Positions 1,135 to 15,236 of a DNA stretch of 34,123 nucleotides are shown one piece after another. Within the stretch, counting starts at the first letter, position 1; each line of letters begins with the position of its first letter. Position numbers and translations under genes: made by a program. The notes below the pieces were generated by a model. It did not search any database and was not told where the DNA came from. It was given only the letters and a program-made list of their open reading frames with translations. Source of the DNA: an uncultured Candidatus Saccharibacteria bacterium (GTDB lineage Bacteria > Patescibacteriota > Saccharimonadia > Saccharimonadales > Saccharimonadaceae); NCBI GenBank assembly GCA_947304135.1, contig CAMYZZ010000007.1:1-34123 (forward strand), given 5' to 3'.

Positions 1135-1392
1135 CTAAGAATAGTACTTATACATGGCGTTAACCAACAAATCTGTTACGTCGCAATCAAGCGCTTCCGC
1201 CAAAGTAGCTAAAAACTCCAAACTCGGCTTTTTGCGCCCCTGTTCTACGCTACTTATATAACCAACTGATTTGCCTACCCATTTAGCTAATTTAGCCTGA
1301 GTAAATTTTTCACCCTTATAGTTGGTGCCTTTTTTCTTGCGATAGTATTTGATATTTTCACCAACTACTTCGTAGTTAATTCCTGCTGCCAT
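1135..1392 (-). CDS. XRE-family HTH transcriptional regulator
   Basis: FTQAKLAKWVGKSVGYISSVEQGRKKPSLEFLATLAEALDCDVTDLL is a classic XRE HTH; start MAAGINYE preferred. Confidence 0.85.
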   Translation of the reverse strand: MAAGINYEVVGENIKYYRKKKGTNYKGEKFTQAKLAKWVGKSVGYISSVEQGRKKPSLEFLATLAEALDCDVTDLLVNAMYKYYS

Positions 1393-1434
1393 TCTAAGCC
1401 CCCTTTCAAAGTGCATTACTCTATAACTTTTTAT

Positions 1435-1463
1435 ATTATACAACAAAAAGAAGCGCCTGTAAA
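1435..1463 (-). promoter_or_regulatory. Predicted promoter of the XRE gene (TTTACA-17-TATAAT)
   Basis: -35 TTTACA at 1463..1458 lies in the loop of the gyrA terminator; -10 TATAAT at 1440..1435. Confidence 0.55.
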
Positions 1464-9566: not shown

Positions 9567-9908
9567 TTATATTCTCTTTTTGATTACAAAGCACCCCAAA
9601 AAGACAAAAACAGCGGTCATTGCCACCGTAATCAAATTAAGACTCCCAAAAGACTGGACTAAAAGAATCATAATCGGGCCAAAAGAAACCATCGCAGCAT
9701 AATACTTCCCCTTAGCCTGGCTCTTCCCGCCGGCCTTCATGAACAGTCCGACTATCAAGTTAGTTATGCCATAGATTATTACATAAATCATCATGAAAAA
9801 AACTAAAACTCCTAGCGGACCGACGCCCGTAGGAGTTGTAAAATTTATCATCGCGAGAATAACCACCACTGCTACAAAGCTCAAAACTAGTGTCAGACGA
9901 TTAAACAT
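9567..9908 (-). CDS. Small multi-pass membrane protein, unknown function
   Basis: 113 aa with several hydrophobic segments; TATAAT six bp upstream of the ATG. Confidence 0.65.
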   Translation of the reverse strand: MFNRLTLVLSFVAVVVILAMINFTTPTGVGPLGVLVFFMMIYVIIYGITNLIVGLFMKAGGKSQAKGKYYAAMVSFGPIMILLVQSFGSLNLITVAMTAVFVFLGCFVIKKRI

Positions 9909-9924
9909 AAGCTAATTATAGCAT

Positions 9925-10497
9925 ATCTAAAGTGGCTTGGAAACAATGTTCCGTCTCGGATTCTACTGGCCAACTGCGAAAAGCCAGTGTTTCCCTTTCA
10001 AGTTATTCTCCCAACGATAAAAGAATTTATTCCCCCATTGTAGCCCATGGAACTTCCTGCGACTCAAAGTTCTATGGGCTAAAGAGTGGAGGTCATCCGG
10101 CAAATTGTATGATATTACTTTGGGCCGCGACCTTCGCCCACCCTTCAGCTTTTTGACCGCCTCGTGTTTAACGAGGCATTGTCCTTGCTTTTCCCTAATC
10201 ACTCTGCTTATGGCTAATGTACTAATGATCAGGAAGTAGCGCGCTCTACGCTTTTGGCGGAGCTAAAGGTAATTCCTAGAGTTTAATTCTCTCAGGTTTT
10301 ACCCTGGTTGGAATAAACTTCTTTGTAATTTATGGCTAGAAATTACCTATTCGCTCGCCAAAACAACAACGAAAGCCTCCGAATCATCTTTCAGGCTCTA
10401 ATCCCCTGCCTAAAAAACCTTTTGGCTCTCTATAAGCTATTTCGGTTTCATGTTTTTTCCTTTTAATTTGCGTTTTTGTTTTCGTCTTAATGACTTA
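9925..10497 (-). ncRNA. Large structured RNA of unidentified family (~570 nt)
   Basis: No credible ORF. Complementary helices: 10252-10259/10356-10363; 10267-10279/10336-10348 (12 bp, one mismatch); 10280-10289/10311-10319; 10042-10055/10067-10080 (13 of 14 pairs); 10159-10165/10171-10177; 10121-10125/10136-10140; 9965-9970/9983-9988. Minus promoter TTGAAA-17-TATGCT at 10531..10503. The 3' end is uncertain. Confidence 0.6.
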
Positions 10498-10551: not shown

Positions 10552-10568
10552 GTTGTATTTTTTACAAC
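10552..10568. repeat. Operator-like inverted repeat, copy 1: GTTGTATTTTTTACAAC
   Basis: Inverted repeat (GTTGTA/TACAAC) identical to the one at 10619-10635. Confidence 0.65.
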
Positions 10569-10618: not shown

Positions 10619-10635
10619 GTTGTATTTTTTACAAC
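10619..10635. repeat. Operator-like inverted repeat, copy 2: GTTGTATTTTTTACAAC
   Basis: 17-bp exact copy of 10552-10568. Confidence 0.65.
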
Positions 10636-11357: not shown

Positions 11358-11713
11358 TGGTGGAGCTGCCGGATACTGCCTCCGGGTCCGAACTACCTCG
11401 TGGATACCATTCTACACGCATAGTTTATCTGTTCATCTCGACATGCTCAGATAGCACAAACAAACAAAACCTATCTGATGTCATGATTAAATCTCAAACC
11501 TCTGTTTATCACGCAGGGATTCTATTCCCATAAGTCTGATAATCTTCCCCGTTATGGAACCTCACAAGGTCGATCAGCCTATCTTATACTAGGCAAATGC
11601 AGGCATGTAAGCAACATGCTTGCTAGAAGTTTTAGCTTCATTTATTCAATACTTACGGTATTAATCGTCGTGCTTGGTATCTGTTAATAATCCGTCTAAG
11701 CTTTGTCAGCCCC
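11358..11713 (-). ncRNA. ssrA: Transfer-messenger RNA (tmRNA)
   Basis: 5' GGGGCTGACAAAGCTTAGACGG; 3' GAGGCAGTATCCGGCAGCTCCACCA with encoded CCA. Tag reading frame 11636..11592, stop TAG at 11591..11589. Confidence 0.93.
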
Positions 11714-14865: not shown

Positions 14866-14900
14866 AAAATAAAGTCAGGACATGTGCCTGACTTTATTTT
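14866..14900. terminator. Bidirectional intrinsic terminator shared by rpmB (+) and rnpB (-)
   Basis: Perfect 14-bp stem AAAATAAAGTCAGG / CCTGACTTTATTTT, 7-nt loop, T-tracts on both strands. Confidence 0.85.
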
Positions 14901-14905
14901 ATTAC

Positions 14906-15229
14906 GCTCTCAGTAAGCCGGGTTCTGTCATCAGACCAAAGTCTGATGGACAACCATCTATCTAGACCCTAAATTGCTCTAGGGTTCAAGCGGTAAGCGT
15001 GCATCCTCGGGACGAGGTATCTAGCACTCCTTGCAGCTGGTAGGGTTTGCCTCTAATAGACATCGCTATCTATTACTGTGGGCTCTTGCCCCACTCTTTT
15101 CACCCTTGCCATAATGGCGGTTTTGTCTCTGTGGTACTTTCCCTATCCTTTCGGACGGTCGCCGTTAGCGACTACCATACCCTGTGCTGCCCGGACTTTC
15201 CTCTGAAAACCAGCGGTTGTCTTTTGAGC
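14906..15229 (-). ncRNA. rnpB: RNase P RNA (bacterial type)
   Basis: Minus strand contains GAGGAAAGTCCGGGC, CAGGGT..GGTAG, GGGTGAAAAGAGTGGGGCAAGAGCCCAC and a 3' GACAGAACCCGGCTTACTGAGAGC. Ends approximate. Confidence 0.92.
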
Positions 15230-15236
15230 TCTCTTA

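Follow-up and report, generated by a model that had tools for sequence, protein, structure and literature searches.

A structured minus-strand RNA of the Saccharibacteria, predicted to represent an order-wide family absent from Rfam

Our analysis of a 34,123-nt stretch of DNA (the window) from a 711 kb Candidatus Saccharibacteria genome revealed that the region 9925-10497 encodes a genuine structured RNA on the minus strand. Sequence comparisons place it in an RNA family of the order Saccharibacteria that was not described before and is absent from Rfam. That the region is the gene of a new order-wide structured RNA family, whose members stand alone, bind protein and work in trans, is a reading to which we give roughly even chances. 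An earlier note on this DNA had already seen a large structured RNA of no recognised family here, and its proposed checks for an Rfam match and for covariation bore this out. In cmscan searches, Rfam gave 0 matches for 9925-10497 at gathering score, and under permissive settings (E<=5) a single meaningless chance match and nothing else; covariation among homologues was far above background and exceeded all controls. No description of the RNA was found in the open-access literature on Saccharibacteria RNAs. Viral, phage and plasmid collections held no match to it, and it was found in Saccharibacteria chromosomes only. The minus-strand fold has an energy of -156.6 kcal/mol compared to a shuffle mean of -120.5 (sd 6.3; z = -5.7), and 0 of 100 shuffles were equally low.

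Transcription from the minus strand, as proposed before, is settled by nearly invariant G-U pairs (47/47 in P2 and 81/82 in P5), which would become A-C mismatches on the plus strand, and by a mini-ORF that reads on the minus strand. The promoter TTGAAA-17-TATGCT noted earlier is present at 10531-10503 and is found in the same place in relatives. The RNA plausibly extends from about 10497 to about 10000. In 5' to 3' direction on this strand, two palindromes (10635-10619 and 10568-10552), the promoter, a 5' hairpin and an A-rich stretch with a Shine-Dalgarno site and the mini-ORF are followed by lineage-specific hairpins, P1 around P2, P3, P4, P5, P6, a lineage-specific P7 and a CUUGGGG-like element.

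All helices described here lie on the minus strand. The 5' hairpin P0 (GUC...GAC, 10484-10494) is conserved in position in the genus alignment and in other genera reads GUGCU/AGCAC or GCUUUU/AAAAGC. P1 pairs 10356-10363 with a 3' strand within 10252-10260, and P2 pairs 10337-10348 with 10267-10278, leaving the conserved loop GCCAUAAAUUACA at 10324-10336. Both helices covary across the genus of the window (model R2). The long arm at 10252-10363 that had been read from the sequence alone is thus real, with compensatory changes in P2 in a second genus; its apical helix (10310-10319 with 10280-10291) is an extension restricted to a subclade. In 132 of 136 scanned sequences a P1-like helix with 7 or 8 of its 8 pairs was present, a count that includes spurious pairs picked by the scan in several diverged genomes. 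P3 (GCUC/GAGC, 10260-10263 with 10243-10246) has its 5' strand before and its 3' strand after the 3' strand of P1, so that P1 and P3 cross and form a candidate pseudoknot in the family of the window. In P3, 98.9% of the cells are paired and one pair shows 6 double changes; covariation backs it weakly because it is mostly invariant.

The P4 hairpin (10194-10233) comprises the UGAUCAUU/AGUGAUUA region and a conserved UUAGUAC, and 7 of its 8 pairs changed on both sides. P5 (GGAC-AAU-GCCUCGU/ACGAGGC-GGUC, 10155-10184) is conserved family-wide and order-wide, with 99.5% of the cells paired and covariation in 5 of 8 pairs. The long hairpin P6 (10078-10150), which also covaries, is divided into P6a (10138-10150 with 10078-10089) and P6b/c (10125-10132 with 10091-10100); the hairpin carries a conserved GGAU bulge and an AGUAAU-type loop. 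Model R3 matched the window at 10078-10195 with E=2.6e-24, the window sequence being part of its training set. An H-type pseudoknot of GGAGGTC with GACCTTC, suggested earlier, was dropped in favour of the nested P6: its GGTC/GACC pairing corresponds to the covarying helix P6b, and the enclosing TGGGC/GCCCA conflicts with the covarying P6c. Invariant unpaired elements are GGUCAGUC 3' of P5 as well as the AUAGU-type loop and the GGAU bulge of P6. The previously noted hairpin at 10042-10080 (P7) is present in the sequence, but is lineage-specific and located 3' of the order-wide core. Near the probable 3'-end, a CUUG(U)NGGGGA-like element (GUUGGGAGAAUAACUUG in the window, 9999-10015) is conserved in the genus alignment and in a second genus.

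Covariation was scored in three alignments. In A1 (47 distinct sequences) 94.1% of the cells were paired and 85 cells carried double changes, compared to 25 in shuffled and 8-30 in slid controls. The respective values were 98.2% and 115 versus 17.4 and 3-15 for A2 (82 distinct sequences), and 92.8% and 105 versus 32.5 and 9-22 for the family-wide alignment A3. Since shuffles break relatedness, the slid controls and the results across families weigh more.

With the window sequence as query, blastn matched 32 of 60 relatives, all within the genus; a 141-nt core matched 148 of 174 genus genomes, including 104 of the 110 near-complete ones. Among the matches listed, all 80 core-motif loci in named genomes (80/80) were titled Candidatus Saccharibacteria, many of them from animal gut. 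Two model matches each were seen in some genomes of the genus (G119, G149, G061 and G193), which may be true duplications or artefacts of binning. Model R2 found the RNA in two further genera, in one of which P2 reads AGCUUAUUUCUA/UAGGAGUAAGCU compared to AGGUAAUUUCUA/UAGGAAUUACCU, with several compensatory changes and an unchanged loop. The gap before the downstream 113-aa gene contains a diverged RNA, readable by eye, in eleven more genera of this family; model R1 detected it weakly in seven of them. Model R3 matched 216 of 295 genomes and 76 of 123 genera of the order. It was built family-wide, and matches outside the family were absent from its training set; covariance-model E-values are rough, and the many-genome searches were run with strict filters. 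Part of the 79 order genomes without a match are probably false negatives. Matches in the phylum beyond the order (G654, G593 and G623) were marginal and were not accepted.

Of eighteen further loci fetched, 14 belong to other families within the order and three to the own family; the last, the doubtful G654, lies outside the order and showed neither motif nor synteny. In the loci of other families the RNA typically is a compact form of about 200 nt consisting of the 5' hairpin, P5 and P6. Here, the 5' hairpin has an A-rich loop, followed by CGCUC..GAGCGGUCAGUC and the P6 motif GAUAAGCGC...GCGGAUUUAUC. A T4CP-like ATPase was encoded downstream in 13 of these 14 loci and in 3 of 3 loci of the own family. 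As synteny played no part in the search, this confirms the order-wide matches. To judge from these comparisons, a P1-P4 domain with the candidate pseudoknot is an addition to the core in the family of the window, and a basic mini-ORF was added as well in its genus. The expansion from about 200 to about 570 nt and the 79 of 295 genomes without a match show fast change, a point against the reading favoured here.

The region had been called free of open reading frames. This applies to ORFs of at least 80 aa, of which none lies within 9925-10497. In the genus of the window, however, the region is not wholly non-coding, as a short ORF that we judge to be translated lies inside it. In the window, a Shine-Dalgarno sequence AAAAGGA and the mini-ORF ATGAAACCGAAATAG (MKPK*) can be read directly at 10437-10464 on the minus strand, the ORF itself occupying 10437-10451. 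The arrangement of Shine-Dalgarno site, ATG, ORF and stop was found in 80 of 119 genus loci compared to 4.3 expected from dinucleotide shuffles, and in 72 loci (1.2 expected) when a K+R content of at least 40% was required. Furthermore, the MKYK* class varies synonymously (AAA/AAG, UAU/UAC, UAA/UAG). The Shine-Dalgarno sites and the synonymous variation are strong evidence that this lysine/arginine-rich mini-ORF is translated. Since no clear case was found in the second genus or beyond, it probably is a late addition. A function of the RNA merely as carrier of the mini-ORF was rejected, because the core RNA exists without it.

The sequence upstream of the RNA contains two operator-like palindromes GTTGTAN5TACAAC, both perfect matches, at 10619-10635 (distal) and 10552-10568 (proximal), the latter conserved just 5' of the -35 box. 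They are spaced by about 66-67 bp, and other genera and families likewise have paired sites in front of the RNA, again at a distance of about 66 bp. In other families 27 half-sites were counted versus 8.6 +- 2.9 in shuffles, often as pairs 45-75 bp apart. The excess was weaker in other genera of the own family (17 versus 9.0 +- 2.6). Genome G000 contains 8 perfect copies and 15 with at most one mismatch, compared to 3 for a reversed control pattern. Several copies are intragenic, one of them in a phosphoketolase-like gene in five species, and one is located near comF in three species. We do not claim a regulon, since most other genomic sites are intragenic or do not recur, the exceptions being the comF-adjacent site and a few intragenic ones such as that in the phosphoketolase-like gene. 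A palindrome with two mismatches (1428-1444) lies at the start of a gene for an XRE-type HTH protein (1135-1446, minus strand), which is a candidate regulator.

The region is located between the tmRNA gene (11358-11713, minus strand) and a gene for a 113-aa membrane protein (9567-9908, minus strand). The tmRNA, with a tag read as AKTSSKHVAYMPAFA, is followed by an intrinsic terminator; it is found by Rfam and missed by ARAGORN. As indicated by tblastn and synteny, the 113-aa gene is the first of an operon that continues with a second small, P-rich protein and the T4CP-like ATPase (Pfam T4SS-DNA_transf). The same downstream gene was present in 53 of 53 distinct genus loci checked and tmRNA was upstream in 9 of 9 R2-detected loci read. 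The order comM - tmRNA - gap - 113-aa gene - ATPase is kept in the eleven other genera of the family.

We propose that the RNA would act in trans as a stand-alone small RNP, with GGUCAGUC after P5 and, in P6, the GGAU bulge and the AUAGU-type loop as its protein-binding sites. A transcription factor that recognises the palindromes would govern its synthesis. In the genus of the window, ribosomes translating the mini-ORF would in most loci come to a stop next to P1 and could gate the P1/P3 fold. We infer protein binding from the invariant unpaired nucleotides alone, and their binding partner may not be a protein.

An unlikely alternative is that the RNA is a cis-acting leader, i.e. a riboswitch or attenuator, of the membrane protein/T4CP-like ATPase operon. 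The operon follows the RNA directly in 16 of 17 order-level loci and in almost every locus of the family, a tighter linkage than that to the upstream neighbour (comM in 11 of 17), and inspection revealed no terminator after the RNA in the window or its genus. However, an extended -10 box (TG.TATAAT, 9915-9920, minus strand) is located 6-7 nt before the ATG of the 113-aa gene and is conserved in three genera, so that this gene appears to be leaderless with its own promoter; such a -10 beside the start codon was seen in the genera read. Moreover, in roughly half of the 17 other loci the RNA is set off from the gene by a complete intrinsic terminator (5 in a strict scan, about 9 with cases judged by eye, among them the longer-looped or imperfect terminators of L236, L239, L241 and L245). 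No alternative terminator/antiterminator arrangement was found. From these sequence features we favour a protein-binding RNA that acts in trans rather than a leader in cis: a promoter of the RNA, terminators after it and a separate promoter of the downstream gene have each been seen, though not all three in one lineage.

Rather improbable is a translation-gated switch in which, similar to leader-peptide attenuators, ribosomes on the mini-ORF would determine whether P1/P2 or an extended P3 (GCUCCGC/GCGUNGAGC) forms. It would agree with the mini-ORF, which both the statistics and its synonymous variation show to be real and whose stop lies at the P1 edge in most genus loci, and with the overlap of the P1 3' strand with the extended P3; the extension can pair over its full length in 75 of 84 scored loci. 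Yet the mini-ORF is not clear beyond the genus, that of the window lies about 70 nt upstream of P1, and covariation is silent on the P3 extension, whose pairing hardly varies.

Very improbable, too, is a highly diverged SRP RNA or 6S RNA missed by the Rfam models. Such roles are formally vacant, since RF00169, the small bacterial SRP RNA model, had no match in 98 near-complete genomes from this phylum, versus matches in 11 of 14 control genomes, and 6S RNA was not found in the genus. But neither RF00169 nor RF00013 (6S RNA) matched the region, the permissive cmscan gave nothing relevant, and by inspection neither the SRP domain IV core motif nor a 6S-like single rod with a central bubble is present. 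Besides, the RNA is limited to one order, whereas the SRP gap is phylum-wide, and a single weak 6S match (G037) proved to be a different RNA. Practically no weight can be given to chance folding of DNA-level repeats or a decayed gene: despite the long inverted repeats and AT-rich surroundings, it is refuted by covariation, with compensatory changes, one-strand invariant G-U pairs, a conserved promoter and order-wide homologues.

Going further, the family could be an order-wide RNP under a dedicated regulator that is translation-gated in the genus of the window, with the tiny basic mini-ORF delivering ribosomes up to a pseudoknot by which the activity of the RNA is switched, and possibly tied to the T4CP-like machine in a host-dependent lifestyle; we regard this extended picture as quite doubtful. 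The wide spread, dedicated promoter and near-fixed genomic position suggest a core role of the RNA. A conserved RNA gene that extends over the greater part of an order in the candidate phyla radiation and is absent from Rfam would be among the few lineage-wide RNAs known for these host-dependent bacteria. Its stepwise growth from about 200 to about 570 nt, by insertion of a domain and then a mini-ORF, provides a traceable case of the origin of a large RNA. The RNA is directly testable, as gene deletion is now possible in naturally transformable, culturable Saccharibacteria (PMC10633639).

The earlier remark that the RNA is unlike tmRNA, RNase P RNA, SRP RNA and group I/II introns proved correct; the RNase P RNA (RF00010/RF00011) is located elsewhere, at 14899-15232. 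The comparison with ROOL, GOLLD and OLE, which are long, ornate, structured RNAs of unknown or partly known function, was based on a size of about 570 nt. The RNA of the window is indeed large and shares their ornate character, but the likeness is one of size alone, because this size is derived and the order-wide core, confined to Saccharibacteria chromosomes, measures only about 200 nt. Covariance models of ROOL, GOLLD, OLE, raiA and other large Rfam RNAs did not match at gathering or permissive E-values. With 6S RNA it would share the properties of a stand-alone housekeeping-type RNA of about 200 nt present in most of the order, but it is built from three hairpins and not as a single rod with a bubble. 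Like its genomic neighbour tmRNA, it is a conserved and probably independent RNA gene with a short reading frame, here in the genus of the window only. In contrast to tmRNA, whose model RF00023 had no match in the region, it has no tRNA-like domain, and its frame has an own Shine-Dalgarno site and start codon instead of being a tag frame without own start. Finally, a short Shine-Dalgarno-led frame just 5' of mutually exclusive helices is reminiscent of leader-peptide attenuators. Here, however, the downstream gene appears to be leaderless with a promoter of its own, and the core RNA exists without the frame.
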